A stretch of DNA of 52,813 nucleotides from a virus, in the IMG/VR virus record IMGVR_UViG_3300037502_004181, positions 1 through 52,813 of that record; one strand, written 5' to 3'. Shown one piece after another: positions 1,926 to 8,200 of the stretch (positions are counted from its first letter, which is position 1; each line of letters starts with the position of its first letter). The notes beneath the pieces were generated by a model. The model searched no databases, had not been told where the DNA came from, and worked only from the letters and a program-made list of their open reading frames with translations. Position numbers and translations under genes: made by a program.

Positions 1926-2201
1926 TTAATTTTCAATCGATAGCGGATACCTAGCCTTTATCTCAGAAACTTTATCTCTCCATATCTTCTCCGCTTCCGG
2001 CGTGCCATCGTATTGCCACTCAAGAAAAAGAGGGTCTGATTCTTCCCTGTACGCCTTCTGCCTTTTTTCATAGTTTTGTGATAATTCAAAATCCCTTTGG
2101 CGTATCACCGACTCGATTTGTTCAGAATCCATTCCCAGAGATTTCATGTATTCTTCTGTAAAATCTGTGTGTGTTTTTCCTTTAAATATGTAACTAAACA
2201 T
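1926..2201 (-). CDS. Small phage protein coupled to the DGR reverse transcriptase
   Basis: A 91-residue acidic, mostly helical protein that starts at the ATG overlapping the last codons of the RT gene. A strong AGGAGG lies seven bases upstream, so the longer frame beginning inside the RT is unlikely. The C-terminal pattern (DPLF..W, then W..KV.EIKARYP) resembles small proteins often encoded right after tail-fibre genes in phages, some annotated as tail assembly proteins. That resemblance is from memory. It is the last gene of the late operon before the att site. Function unknown. Confidence 0.75.
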   Translation of the reverse strand: MFSYIFKGKTHTDFTEEYMKSLGMDSEQIESVIRQRDFELSQNYEKRQKAYREESDPLFLEWQYDGTPEAEKIWRDKVSEIKARYPLSIEN

Positions 2202-3471
2202 CTGTTTTCCTCCTGAATGGCTCAGCAAAAAGAGCCTTTTTAAGGTTGTAGGTGCTGGCGTGACCCGCATGGCCAAGCCATGATTGAATGTTCTGATTTA
2301 TATCAGAGAGACTTATCTCGCCTTTAGCGAACTGAGACCGATACTTTTTAAGTTTTGTCTTAATTCGCTTGACGCTGCATTTTCTCAGCAACCTATGGCT
2401 CGAATAAATTCGATACCCGAGAAAGTCCAAGCTCCTGCCGTTACTCGTTGAGATGGGGAAAACCTGCGTCTTGCTGTTCGTTTTTAATCTCAGGTAAAGG
2501 TGCAGAAATTCCTCTATATCCTTTCTCCACTGGTGCAGCACAGCCTTGTCGTGGTGAATGATGGCAAAATCGTCCATGTAGCGGATGTAGTGTTTTGCGC
2601 CAAGTGCGTGCTTTGCATATCTATCAAGCTCGTGCAGATACACGTTTGCAAAAATCTGACTGGTAAGGTTCCCCAGCGGAATGCCCACGCCCATTGATTC
2701 GCAAGGGCTGTTATCAATGATGTAAAACAGCAGTTCAAGCGTTCTCTGGCATTGTATTTTTGCCGCAAGGATAGACTTCAATACCTGGTGGTCTATGCTC
2801 GAAAAGTAACGGCTAATATCCGCTTTTAACGCATACGCCTTGCCATGCTTTGACTCCACCTTCTTAATAAAATATTGAGCCCTGTCAGCGCCTTTGTGGG
2901 TGCCTTTTCCTCGTCTACATGCGTATGAGTCATAGATGTAGGTTTTGTCAAACAGCGGCTCGATAACATTGTATATAGCCCGATGGACAACTCTGTCCTT
3001 AAAGTGCGGGGCTGATATCAGACGGCGCTTCGGCTCGAATACGTAAAAATGGTGATAGGGTGACATTTTATACATACCCCACATCAGCTCGTTTTGTATT
3101 TCTATAATGTTCTCTTCCAGATTATTGAAGAAAACTAGCGTTGCGTTCGCCTTTGTTTTTCCTTTTCGGCATGAGTATGCCGCCGATAAAAGATTCTCAA
3201 AATCAAATATCTTCTCGAATGAGCAGCCCAGTGACGCATCAATGGGCTTTATATCTGTTCCGGCTATGGCCGAGGAGGCGGCATCCTTTTCATGATTGCA
3301 CTGACAGCATCCCTTGGGATGGTTGTTTCTGGCTACATCAAGAGCGGGGCGAAAACCGATGTTACTGTTCGAGTTCGACCGCGCATTGTTCAGATTGAGC
3401 GCGCCCAGCCCGGCGTTCGAGCCATTGTTCCAGTTGCCCCCGCGAAGCGGGAACCGGTTCCGCGTATTCAT
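2194..3471 (-). CDS. DGR reverse transcriptase with TR-encoded N-terminal extension
   Basis: Error-prone reverse transcriptase that copies the TR RNA and drives adenine mutagenesis of the VR. RT motifs appear in order: KRRLISAPHFKDR (148-160), motif A KADISRYFSSID (216-227), motif B IPLGNLTSQ (264-272), whose LGxxxSQ form is the DGR signature, and the catalytic YMDD (298-301). The domain starts near residue 80. The ATG at 3471 forms an ATGA overlap with the avd stop and has AGGGGA upstream. Residues 5-43 are translated TR. There is no in-frame ATG, GTG or TTG between residue 2 and M130, inside the domain, so this start seems forced unless a rare start codon is used. Length 425, longer than typical DGR RTs because of the extension. 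Confidence 0.93.
   Translation of the reverse strand: MNTRNRFPLRGGNWNNGSNAGLGALNLNNARSNSNSNIGFRPALDVARNNHPKGCCQCNHEKDAASSAIAGTDIKPIDASLGCSFEKIFDFENLLSAAYSCRKGKTKANATLVFFNNLEENIIEIQNELMWGMYKMSPYHHFYVFEPKRRLISAPHFKDRVVHRAIYNVIEPLFDKTYIYDSYACRRGKGTHKGADRAQYFIKKVESKHGKAYALKADISRYFSSIDHQVLKSILAAKIQCQRTLELLFYIIDNSPCESMGVGIPLGNLTSQIFANVYLHELDRYAKHALGAKHYIRYMDDFAIIHHDKAVLHQWRKDIEEFLHLYLRLKTNSKTQVFPISTSNGRSLDFLGYRIYSSHRLLRKCSVKRIKTKLKKYRSQFAKGEISLSDINQNIQSWLGHAGHASTYNLKKALFAEPFRRKTDV
3343..3458 (-). repeat. DGR template repeat (TR)
   Basis: A 116-base segment that aligns without gaps to the VR at 3897-4012. On the coding strand it holds ten AAC/AAT codons, nine of which are changed in the VR. It ends with an 18-base run identical to the VR end (ATCGGTTTTCGCCCCGCT), the likely initiation-of-mutagenic-homology segment. 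It lies between avd and the RT domain, as in Bordetella phage BPP-1, but here entirely inside the RT open frame and in the same reading register as the target protein. Confidence 0.93.
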
Positions 3472-3824
3472 AATGCCGTCCCCTGTTGCTTGGCATTAAC
3501 GGAGCGTATCCAGCCGCCTATCATTTTTCCAAGCTCAACCAGTTGGCCGACCCATATTTCGTATCTCTTGATGTCGATATACCGCAAGTCCTTGGCGAGC
3601 CTGACTCGCCGTTTCAATATGGCAAGCTCGATATCTAAATCGGTCAGGGTCGTCTTCTTGTGGTATCGCTTAAATGCCGTGATGATCAATCTTTGAAGTT
3701 GCAGCATTGAAAGCCTGATTTCCGCGCCTAAAACATGGCGCTCATGTTTTGGAAATTGCTTTATTGCTTGATAGCCGTACATCATCATTTCCCGGCATTT
3801 TTCTTCAATGATTAGCGTTGTCAA
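3468..3824 (-). CDS. avd: Accessory variability determinant (Avd), four-helix bundle
   Basis: Small basic helical protein (about 118 residues) of the bAvd/four-helix-bundle family. In BPP-1 the protein forms a pentamer that binds the RT and the TR RNA and is needed for cDNA synthesis. The gene sits directly between target gene and TR/RT, the canonical place. The start is uncertain: the frame opens at a TTG at 3839, but a GGAGG four bases before the TTG at 3824 favours the latter. The stop overlaps the RT ATG as ATGA, indicating translational coupling. Confidence 0.85.
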   Translation of the reverse strand: MTTLIIEEKCREMMMYGYQAIKQFPKHERHVLGAEIRLSMLQLQRLIITAFKRYHKKTTLTDLDIELAILKRRVRLAKDLRYIDIKRYEIWVGQLVELGKMIGGWIRSVNAKQQGTAL

Positions 3825-3845
3825 CTTGCCTCCGCACAACTAAAG

Positions 3846-3863
3846 GGCGCACTACCGTGCGCC
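3846..3863. promoter_or_regulatory. DGR hairpin/cruciform downstream of the VR
   Basis: A perfect 7-bp stem, GGCGCAC paired with GTGCGCC, closes a four-base loop that reads GGTA on the target-gene coding strand. It lies 33 bases after the VR end and just past the target stop codon. DGRs such as BPP-1 have a required hairpin with a GRNA tetraloop at this place; GGTA fits GRNA. No good T run follows, so a plain terminator is a weaker explanation. Confidence 0.72.
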
Positions 3864-3884
3864 ATCCAAAGAATCAGTTAACAG

Positions 3885-5255
3885 TTACACAAAGAAAGCG
3901 GGGCGAAAACCGATGCTACTGTGCGAGAACGACCGCGCAAAGTTCAGAATGAGCGCGCCCAGCCCGGCGCCCGAGCCATCGTGCCAGCCGCCCCCGCGAC
4001 GCGGGAACCGGTCACCATAGTTTCTAGTGTATAGCACCCCTCCAACAGTCTGGTCTGATGCAGTCTCTAGCAGCAGCTGTCTGAGCAGTTCAACAGGGGT
4101 ATAACCGGCCGATTTTTGCAGAATCTTGAATTCGACAGAGTTGCTATATCCAGAGTTTATGTCGTCACCGACATTACCCATGCGATTTGTCACTGTTGAA
4201 TTGAGGATAGGTGAGCCGCCGGTAGTTGAAGTTGAATCGTAATATGCTGTGTGACGGTTCCATCCAGCCTCTGTTAATGATGGGTTGTTATCCAGCGTTG
4301 TCAGGATTTGGCCGTCATCCAATTTCATCTGGTCAATCCATTCCCAGACGTTGCCGACCAGGTCGCAAATCCCAAACTCTGTATGATCATGGCTCCATGT
4401 TGATGGCCCCTTGCCGGTGCCTGTTGCCCCATTTCCACTGGTGTCGCCAGGTAGTCCGTTATCGGCGCGGCGAGCGGTTTCCCACTTAGCCTCATGGCTG
4501 CGGCCATAGTTCGTATTACCGCGAGGCACAGTGCCATTAGCCAGAGACCAGAGCGCAATGGCGGCCCACTCGTGAATCGACATAAGATGCCAATTGTCAC
4601 CCTTTTGTGTACAAAGCTGTTTTGCAGCGTCGTAGTTAACTGAGGTTCGCGGCTGATTGCCGCCGATAACGGCAGAGCCGCCCGCCGCCGATGATGCCAG
4701 ATATTTGCCGACAAGGATTTCGCCACGAGGCGCTCCGTTTGTGATGAATGCAGGATGCGTTCCGGTGCCAAGATTCAATGCCGGAAGATTTAGATCTTCA
4801 ACGTTGAACCTTGGTATCACACACATGATGTTGGGATTTCCCTGGGCATCATATACGACAGTGTTTCTTCCACCTGAATTTTGTTCGATCGACTTTCGAT
4901 AGCCATCCGTTGCGATAATAGTTAAGTTGCTGACGTTCTGGTTATAGTCAGTCTCAAGTGTGTTCAGCGCATCATCATAGTCATTTATCAGTTCGGATGC
5001 CTGGTCTGCCAATTTCTTGGTATAACCTTGGACAGGAATGATAGAGTACCCTTGGCCTGATTGAGAATTGCTTTTGTAACTCGGATAAATTGATAGTGCC
5101 GAATCACTGGCAATATTCGTTATCTCATAGGTCAGCCCATCAGGGCCAACGAATGCATCACCTACCCGGCTGTTTGCCACCCACGCAGTGCCGCTTCCTG
5201 TTACTGTGGTGGAACCATTGGTTACCGTTACTGTGCCTGTTCTATACCATGCCAT
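3885..5255 (-). CDS. DGR target: tail fibre / receptor-binding protein with FGE-sulfatase (C-type lectin) fold
   Basis: A 456-residue protein at the end of the tail operon. Residues 1-75 are a beta-rich fibre N-terminus (MAWYRTGTVTVTNGS...), which probably anchors to the tail. A short helical linker near 76-115 follows, then a domain of the formylglycine-generating-enzyme/sulfatase-modifying type, with its hallmark GICDLVGNVWEW near residue 295. The VR spans residues 415-453 at the extreme C-terminus (RRGGGWHDGSG... to GFRPA), as in other DGR variable proteins. It starts 12 bases after gpJ with a GAGG site. Inferred role: host receptor binding, with DGR retargeting changing tropism. Confidence 0.92.
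   Translation of the reverse strand: MAWYRTGTVTVTNGSTTVTGSGTAWVANSRVGDAFVGPDGLTYEITNIASDSALSIYPSYKSNSQSGQGYSIIPVQGYTKKLADQASELINDYDDALNTLETDYNQNVSNLTIIATDGYRKSIEQNSGGRNTVVYDAQGNPNIMCVIPRFNVEDLNLPALNLGTGTHPAFITNGAPRGEILVGKYLASSAAGGSAVIGGNQPRTSVNYDAAKQLCTQKGDNWHLMSIHEWAAIALWSLANGTVPRGNTNYGRSHEAKWETARRADNGLPGDTSGNGATGTGKGPSTWSHDHTEFGICDLVGNVWEWIDQMKLDDGQILTTLDNNPSLTEAGWNRHTAYYDSTSTTGGSPILNSTVTNRMGNVGDDINSGYSNSVEFKILQKSAGYTPVELLRQLLLETASDQTVGGVLYTRNYGDRFPRRGGGWHDGSGAGLGALILNFARSFSHSSIGFRPAFFV
3897..4012 (-). repeat. DGR variable repeat (VR)
   Basis: A 116-base segment at the 3' end of the target gene. Against the TR it shows 14 substitutions: 13 at TR adenines (coding strand), giving N to G, H, D, G, I, F, F, H and S, and one T-to-G change at 4000 near the 5' edge, which changes L to R. 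The terminal 18 bases are identical to the TR. This pattern is direct evidence that adenine-specific retrohoming has acted here. Confidence 0.93.
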
Positions 5256-5267
5256 TTTTAGCCTCTA

Positions 5268-8200
5268 TTAAGTATTTTCTGTGGCGATTAGTGATAACCG
5301 CTGAGTTTTAAATGGGACGCTACCCGCGTTATAGGTCGTCACGCGAGCGCGGTAATAACGTGTTGCTGTTGTTTGGTCTGAGTCGGTAAAAGTGGCGCTA
5401 CCCGATAGGTTTGATGAGCCGATTCGGTCTGTTCCTTCTTGCGAAATTGTCCACGAACCACCGCATAAAATGGTTTGTACGACTGACCATGTTTTACCTA
5501 AATCTAGTGAGCGCTCTAATACGACAGTGCCGCTGGTTGAGCCGCTAGAAGATGTACCTGTTTGGTTTAAAAAGAATGAGCCGTGGCATTGCAGCGATAC
5601 GGCGATAGTGATGACGCCGCCTAAACTGCCGAACGTGGTTTCGACTGCTGCCGTTGAGCTGAGCTGAGATGATGTAACGGCATTTTTGTAGTCGCCAGTG
5701 GTGATGGCGCCACCGAAATAGGCGCTGCCATCTACTTTGCGGTATGACGTGGCATTAGCTTCGGTGCAGTTACTGATATCGCCCACATCAGGCCCAAACC
5801 ATTCCAAGAATTGATTGCTGCTACCAAACCCAATACCAAAGACCTGCAGCGAACTGCCAATACGTTGGATAATGGTTTTGTTATGAAGTGTTCCAATAAC
5901 GGCATTATTCATGTAGACCATGCCGTTCTGCACCACGAATGGTGACGTAACTGTGGTTGTTCCTGTGGTTTGATTGAGAATTGCAAATCTGTCAGCTAAA
6001 ACGAAAAAGTTAGACTGAAGGCCTGCAGAGCCGTTCTCATAGCTTAGCCCAAACCCTGAAGCATAGTATTTGCCATCAGCAGTGATATTCATGCTGACTT
6101 TCCACATTGCTTCGATATTGCCTTCAAGGTCTGCCTGAGCCTGAGACACTTGCTGAATCGCTGTGGTATTGTTGCCTACCGAGGATTGCAGCGTCGTTAT
6201 GTCCTGAGCAAGAGCGCTATCCGCATCAGCTCTGGCCGTAGCCTCAGACTGAATTGCGGCAGCGTTGTCTCCTACCGAGGATTGCAGCGTTGTTATGTCT
6301 TGGGCAAGAGCGCTATCCGCATCAGCTCTGGCTGTAGCCTCAGATTGAATCGCGGCTGCATTAGTTGATACGCCAATATTGGCCGCATCTGCGGCAGCTT
6401 GTGCCGCAGCAGCTGAAGCCTGAACAGTCGTTATGTTTTGAGCTAATGATTCATCAGCTGTAGTCCGAGCAGTACTTTCCTGCTGAATTGCTGCTGAGTT
6501 GTTTTTTGACTCTGCTGATATGGTAGTAATTTGACGCGCAAGCGCTTCATCCTCTGTTGCCCTGGCCTCCTGCTCTACGCGGATCGCAGCCTTTGACTTC
6601 CATCCGGAAAGAACATCAGCAAGGCGGCCATCGCCAGTGTCTTCCACCGTCGCCTGAACTGTATTTATTTTCCTGCTCAATACACTATCAGCATTGGCTC
6701 TGGCCGTAGCCTCAGACTGAATTGCGGCTGAGTTGTCTCCGACAGACGTTTGCAGCGTTGTTATGTCTTGCGCTAACGCACTATCAGCATTGGCACGGGC
6801 CGTAGCCTCAGACTGAATTGCGGCAGCGTTGTCTCCTACCGAGGATTGCAGCGTTGTTATGTCTTGGGCAAGAGCGCTATCCGCATCAGCTCTGGCTGTA
6901 GCCTCAGATTGAATCGCGGCTGCATTAGTTGATACGCCAATATTGGCCGCATCTGCGGCAGCTTGTGCCGCAGCAGCTGAAGCCTGAACAGTCGTTATGT
7001 TTTGAGCTAATGATTCATCAGCTGTAGTCCGAGCAATACTTTCCTGCTGAATCGCGGCTGAGTTGTTTTTTGACTCTGCTGATATTGTAGTAATTTGACG
7101 CGCAAGCGCTTCATCCTCTGTTGCCCTGGCCTCCTGCTCTACGCGGATCGCCGCTTTTGACTTCCAACCAGCAAGAACATCAGCAAGGCGGCCATCTCCA
7201 GTGTCATCATCGCGATAGGCGGCGATCATGGTGTCAGTGCGTGAAGTGTTGGCTTCTAGCTTGCCGTCAATCAAATCAACAGAGTTCTGAACATCTGTCA
7301 TTTGCGCCGTGAGTGCAGCTACCGCCTCACCAATACTGGCGTAATCACCTACATACTCCCAATAGTTGGTATCTGTTGGCAGAGTTCCAGCAGGAATGTT
7401 GTCCTGCTTTGCCCGGTATATTGATATACCTGTTCCGTCGTCGTAGGTGACGAATTCGCCGCTGTTATATACCGTTGAGGCGCTCCACTCTCCTGCCCCA
7501 GAAATGTCAGCCAGCTGCTGGTTTATACTGTCAATGTTTGCCTGGATCTGCGGTATTTTGTCTATTTCAATGTTTATGGAATCAAGGTTTGACTCAATTC
7601 CAGGTATTTTTTCTACCTCTATATTTATAGAGTCAAGGTTTGATTCGATTCCTGGTATTTTTTCAATGGGGTCAAGCAGACTCTGGGCCAGTTCGCTTTC
7701 TGATATCTGCCCAGTAAGGTAGTCGAGTATTGTGCCTGCATCTGATGATGATGCGCCCTGTACATAATCAGACCAGGGGCCAATGTTTCCTGTTCTATCG
7801 ACTATCCTGGCCCTGAACCAGAAGGCAATACCTGCTGCCAAACCGGTTATCGTGTGGTTGTCGAGTGGGTAAGCATACTGCCCAAGCAGAGCCTCATTGG
7901 CGCCATTGTTGTCAGTTGCATAGTTGATCTCGGTATAAAGCGTATCCTCAGACCCAGGTTGAAACGCCCACTTTAGGCCAATGCCAAATACCAATGAAGT
8001 GGCATTTAGGCTGGCAAGCGCAGGCGGTGACCCTGTTTTTCCTGTAATATCAGTAAGAACTGATGTTGCCGGTTTGGAGGATATGTCAGCAGCATTAACC
8101 GCGGTGACCCTGGCAATGTATTGGCCGGTGTACACTCCCCGCACATCAACGCTTCTTGTACCTGTTCTAGGCAGACGGATCCAGTCGCCAGAGTCTTTCC

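Follow-up and report, generated by a model that had tools for sequence, protein, structure and literature searches.

A marine phage DGR whose template and spacer RNA appear to be translated as part of its RT

The templates of diversity-generating retroelements (DGRs) have been described as RNAs that are not themselves protein-coding (PMC8867640), and the template repeat (TR), whose copy in the target gene is the variable repeat (VR), is intergenic "in most cases" (PMC8144416). In the DGR analyzed here this usual, though not required, trait is missing and the TR sits in codons of the reverse transcriptase (RT). We analyzed a 52,813-nucleotide stretch of viral DNA (hereafter, the window) together with relatives drawn from genome contigs, IMG/VR, and phage and plasmid records. 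For 203 nonredundant loci, we recorded the TR/VR pair, its register, whether the frame is open, and the start codons. On the evidence of these sequences, we consider it very likely that the RT starts upstream of its template, that the TR and a structured spacer are both translated, and that the same RNA is selected for both jobs.

The cassette and the start of its RT

The cassette and the ORF adjoining it are composed as follows.

3885..5255, minus strand: target gene, 456 aa, of the FGE-sulfatase/SUMF1 type (C-type-lectin-like) by Pfam, with the VR at its C terminus
3897..4012, minus strand: VR, a 116-nt copy of the TR
3846..3863, minus strand: hairpin 3' of the VR, GGCGCAC-GGTA-GTGCGCC, with the GRNA-type loop GGTA, 33 nt past the VR
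3468..3839, minus strand: avd, given as the longest ORF (bAvd, 4.5e-31; DivGenRetAVD, 1.7e-31)
3479..3484, minus strand: AGGGGA, the likely ribosome-binding site of the RT; AGG is kept there in 33 of 33 clade loci
2194..3471, minus strand: RT ORF, 425 aa, identified by Pfam, with its ATG overlapping the avd stop (ATGA) and the RT domain from codon 84 (3222)
3343..3458, minus strand: TR, corresponding to RT codons 5 to 43, located by its repeat match to the VR
3225..3344, minus strand: structured, RT-14-like spacer RNA, corresponding to RT codons 44 to 83, supported by Rfam, a covariance model, selection, and synonymous divergence
1926..2276, minus strand: small ORF overlapping the RT end, which travels with the cassette in VP58.5 (gp21) and ACA1 (gp45)

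The element is a DGR that is ordinary in all its parts except the location of the TR and the spacer, and its host is a lambda-like prophage. Avd was identified by both Pfam and NCBIfam, and the RT and the FGE-sulfatase-type target were identified by Pfam. The RT ORF contains GNLTSQ, with the SQ of the GxxxSQ motif expected of a DGR-type RT, and in the PDB its product is closest, in both sequence and fold, to the DGR RT of BPP-1 (8ub7, residues 86 to 410). TR and VR are 88% identical over 116 nt, and of their 14 mismatches 13 are at adenines of the TR, each in the first or second position of a codon. These adenine mismatches, the C-terminal VR in a C-type-lectin-like target (12 nt from the VR end to the last base of the target), the presence of Avd, and the structured spacer RNA all mark the element as a DGR; the TR peptide, moreover, resembles the C terminus of the DGR variable protein 5vf4. 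Phage DGRs, including that of VHML, carry a hairpin with a 7- to 10-bp stem and a GRNA loop at a distance of 4 to 34 bp from the VR (PMC3240598), and the hairpin at 3846..3863 conforms to this pattern. Near-identical phages differ in their VRs mostly at TR adenines, which we take as an indirect sign of past mutagenic retrohoming.

Some further features of these genes deserve mention. The small ORF at 1926..2276 had no match in Pfam or NCBIfam, and the annotated homologue in Vibrio phage VP58.5 (NC_027981) would put the avd start near 3788. The TR of one near-identical phage (L052, 5565 to 5680) shows three A-to-G changes at TR offsets 42, 68, and 69 (RT N19S and N28G); at two of the three changed sites its own VR keeps A, and homing into the TR itself is possible.

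An earlier note on this DNA had placed the RT start upstream of the TR, and its readings of the sequence proved correct. On the minus strand, the RT ATG (3471) and the avd stop share an ATGA, with the end of AGGGGA 7 nt ahead of this ATG. The TR (3458 to 3343, minus strand) falls in codons 5 to 43, so that RT residues 5 to 43 are the translated TR; our codon-by-codon reading agrees that there is no in-frame ATG, GTG, or TTG between codon 1 and codon 130; and the TR in the RT frame and the VR in the target frame share the same register. The comparison with BPP-1 is also right, as its TR (2699 to 2832) precedes the RT start (brt from 2977; locus L138). Synthesis of the RT as a fusion with the TR peptide, the main claim of the note, is well supported at the sequence level, because the start, the coupling to avd, and the open frame are conserved and the linker (codons 44 to 83) is under purifying selection in this frame. 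An open, in-register TR frame is too weak to serve as proof of a fusion: some nonfusion relatives have one, and in most of these the RT has its own start downstream.

Two further proposals of the note held in part. That one RNA is both message and template stands as a description of the layout: both lie on one strand, and a promoter scan found sites no more numerous than in shuffled sequence. At the level of molecules, any single RNA would presumably be in use as either message or template, not both at once. The coding constraint predicted for the TR is strong (TR dN/dS is very low), but nonfusion relatives show the same, because the VR must encode the target. A constraint on the TR specific to the fusion was set aside, being inseparable from the target constraint; constraint attributable to the fusion itself appears only in the spacer.

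Codons 44 to 83 as protein linker and as spacer RNA

Conservation of the linker is not explained by the target protein, because its 40 codons lie outside the TR and the VR. In 24 representatives, the linker dN/dS is 0.27 in the RT frame and 1.0 to 1.1 out of frame, and the gain of the codon model over omega = 1 (2dlnL) reaches 81.7 in the RT frame versus 3.0 and 0.15 in the others. Independent close pairs revealed a third-position excess in the linker (57 versus 31 and 35; p = 0.008), which was absent from nonfusion relatives (p = 0.49) and from the four nearest nonfusion spacers. In RNA-paired columns this phase signal is strong; in unpaired ones it is weaker (p = 0.18). Spacer indels within the clade are of +3 and +6, codons 77 and 81 vary, and many of the conserved linker residues coincide with invariant RNA motifs.

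The same stretch matches a known RNA family. The Rfam model RT-14 (RF02921) aligned over its full length with 3344 to 3225 (minus strand), from the TR end to codon 83, with a score of 37.4 bits, which is below the gathering cut-off of 48.1 bits; most matched relatives scored 31 to 44 bits at the spacer. Full-length matches were also found at the spacer of L129, L135, L136, L137, and others, and whereas the RNA is translated in the window, it is untranslated in L137. The consensus fold of 24 coding spacers has 96.5% of cells paired and compensatory changes at 13 of 29 pairs, and its covariation score of 0.383 compares with at most 0.083 when partners were slid and 0.157 with shuffling. The helices fall in the window as follows.

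3304..3326, minus strand: spacer hairpin 1 (helix 3), compensatory changes at 5 of 8 pairs
3261..3272, minus strand: spacer hairpin 2 (helix 4), compensatory changes at 1 of 4 pairs, the rest invariant
3226..3247, minus strand: spacer hairpin 3 (helix 5), just before the RT domain, compensatory changes at 7 of 9 pairs
3281..3345, minus strand: possible closing helix (helix 1) of the TR 3' end (3345 to 3340) with 3287 to 3281, conserved, without covariation

Folded alone, the window spacer is not unusually stable (z = 0.32, single-sequence folding), and the case for the RNA therefore rests on covariation and homology. Synonymous divergence is 0.29 to 0.30 in the TR and spacer and rises abruptly at codon 84, to 0.72 in the RT domain; even the lowest 40-codon segment of the RT domain is not below 0.516. 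R1, a covariance model built from coding spacers only, locates the RNA where it is expected in about 50 relatives, and in the 28 examined for geometry the RNA nearly always ends before the RT start. Since a model derived from coding sequence finds the RNA ahead of the RT start in these relatives, the comparison indicates one homologous RNA that is translated in the fusion clade and untranslated in its neighbors. We conclude that the same 40 codons are both the protein linker and the structured spacer RNA of the element, a feature that the first reading of the window had missed.

The arrangement among relatives and competing explanations

We looked for the arrangement among related DGRs and found it in 33 of the 34 loci in which RT identity was 66% or more and a TR/VR pair was detectable. 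All 33 have the ATGA, an AGG upstream, an open frame, and a TR in both the RT and the VR register. Because it recurs in every locus at this level of identity, VHML aside, the arrangement is not due to chance. A search of 395 genomes of one host order yielded only two further relatives. The fusion loci form one RT clade with 99/95 support, in which VHML is nested (IQ-TREE, RT domain), and among the loci examined the ATGA overlap, which comes from a longer Avd C terminus, is confined to this clade. Some ATG, GTG, or TTG occurs between the TR and codon 95 in 14 of the 33 members, at unconserved positions.

Homologues whose frame is broken upstream of the RT domain, which the earlier note had named as evidence against the fusion, do exist, and we judge that neither kind refutes it. 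A 1-nt insertion breaks the frame of VHML, but compared with VP58.5 its record shows about 40 bases gained or lost over the avd-RT region, and one base of avd is ambiguous; given these many small defects, we set it aside as weak evidence. The remaining cases are relatives below 57% RT identity, in which the TR frame is broken or out of register and the RT has its own start at codon 77 or 84; since they have this start, they represent a different arrangement. The nearest of these nonfusion relatives, Vibrio phage ZX4290 (L137/L235), L070, L072, and L305, have spacers of 127 to 136 nt that R1 matches; in contrast to the window, their TR is in another register and the RNA ends just ahead of the RT start at codon 84. 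In most other relatives below 57% identity the RT starts at codon 77 or 78, and the spacers are mostly of 164 to 264 nt. The Aeromonas relatives (L132, L157 to L162) have an open in-frame TR, yet also ATG84 with AAGG before it, and in one of them (L160) a G-run insertion breaks the upstream frame by one base; this group may represent an intermediate state. In a Photobacterium damselae plasmid (L136, 2899 to 3849), the RT ORF stops at 316 aa and RT similarity continues downstream, and this RT looks truncated.

These relatives bear on the question of whether the RT could instead initiate downstream of the TR, at CTG81, at ATT77, or by internal entry. The upstream frame would then be open incidentally, because a TR in the VR register tends to lack stops, and indeed some nonfusion relatives have an open, in-register TR, while below 57% identity the RTs of relatives do begin at codon 77 or 84. 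In a predicted structure (shallow alignment, mean pLDDT 61), residues 1 to 81 are disordered and the RT fold begins at about residue 82, as a downstream start would have it; this predicted disorder is also consistent with a tolerated N-terminal tail. However, the fusion clade has no conserved start codon or Shine-Dalgarno site near codons 77 to 84, whereas the ATGA and the AGG are kept in 33 of 33 loci, and the linker evolves as protein in the RT frame only, with the candidate codons 77 and 81 themselves varying. We regard a downstream start as very improbable.

If the tail is made, it might have a protein function of its own, for instance as a mimic of the target C terminus that binds a partner or the chaperone of the target. 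The match of the peptide to the C terminus of 5vf4 and the very low dN/dS of the TR fit such a role, but the likeness to the target already follows from the identity of TR and VR, and the coding constraint on the TR is present in nonfusion relatives too. With a tail that is predicted to be disordered (from a shallow alignment) and carries N19S and N28G in a near-identical phage, and with many conserved linker residues overlapping invariant RNA motifs, we consider this function unlikely. Somewhat more plausible, though still doubtful, is a selected coupling of translation to templating, in which spacer-bound RT-Avd would block its own message or the RT would prefer the RNA that encodes it, a sharper version of the link between RT translation and template availability suggested in the earlier note. 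Throughout one clade, the site that RT-Avd presumably binds does fall within the codons of the RT itself; compaction, however, accounts equally well for the lost ribosome-binding gap behind the spacer, and the spacer is 130 nt downstream of the start, where a bound complex would hinder elongation, an obstacle often overcome by ribosomes. Were such a control to operate, RT-Avd binding would turn message into template (or the RT would act in cis), and the element would meter its own mutagenesis.

Proposed route, origin, and known systems

Our preferred reading, an RT start upstream of the template, implies the following route. Ribosomes would end avd and initiate the RT at the overlapping ATGA, then cross the TR (codons 5 to 43) and the structured spacer (codons 44 to 83) before reaching the RT domain, and the product would be an RT with an 83-residue, probably disordered tail. 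In BPP-1, the spacer recruits RT-Avd, and an adenine within the spacer serves as the primer for cDNA at the 3' end of the TR; template adenines are copied with errors, and the resulting cDNA homes to the VR (PMC12875486). By analogy, RT-Avd would here bind the spacer, prime cDNA at the TR 3' end, and miscopy the TR at its adenines, and the VR would be rewritten by this cDNA, with RNP formation and retrohoming presumably as in BPP-1. As to the origin of the arrangement, a relative with an RT start at codon 77 to 84 likely lost that start and the ribosome-binding site behind the spacer RNA, and an extended avd C terminus likely supplied the upstream start.

The locus is a real, conserved variant of a known system, and its layout has already been published. 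Schillinger et al. (2012) grouped DGRs whose TR overlaps an RT ORF end as group 3 (PMC3521204); that grouping relies solely on where annotated ORFs end, and the authors inferred that RT and TR are separate RNAs, leaving translation of the TR out of consideration. The 2023 paper on ACA1 states in one sentence that the TR is translated as an N-terminal RT extension (PMC10612066). Pseudoalteromonas phages ACA1 and ACA2 and Vibrio phage VP58.5, whose RT is 99.8% identical to that of the window, belong to the same clade, with the order avd-ATGA-RT and the TR inside the RT ORF. BPP-1, which has the nearest solved RT (8ub7), shares the order target-avd-TR-spacer-RT and carries the Phage_DGR RNA (RF03022) at the equivalent place between TR and brt; unlike in the window, its TR and spacer RNA occupy the gap from avd to brt and belong to neither gene. 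A literature search, outside which most subscription journals lay, found no report of a coding spacer, dual-layer selection, the clade, or its origin; the dual-coded spacer and the evolutionary route, not found described there, appear to be new.

A clade of marine phages and plasmids thus appears to translate both its template and the spacer that the RT is thought to bind. The RNA fold is kept through compensatory changes that also respect codons, which makes the clade a natural test of which parts of DGR RNAs matter. The arrangement suggests that a DGR can still work when ribosomes pass over its template, and it renders a switch between message and template directly testable. It also carries a warning for annotation, since residues 1 to 83 of these RTs correspond to the TR and the spacer.

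The DGR cassette (window 2164 to 4947) is about 95% identical to that of VP58.5, and the rest of the first 20 kb of the window has no near match to any phage record. The window carries an integrase and lambda-like tail genes; VP58.5 belongs to another genus, Vhmlvirus. These observations suggest that the cassette is transferred whole between phages that are not related. At the left end, a partial tRNA-like sequence (1744 to 1812, recognized by reading) lies beside a dgt-like gene and recurs in another locus (L062) beside the same cassette. We found neither a second copy in the window nor a complete tRNA, and the sequence is possibly an attachment-site remnant. Finally, the GpJ-like tail tip gene contains long internal repeats (6153 to 7066), comprising 300 nt at 92% identity and units of 46 to 50 nt.
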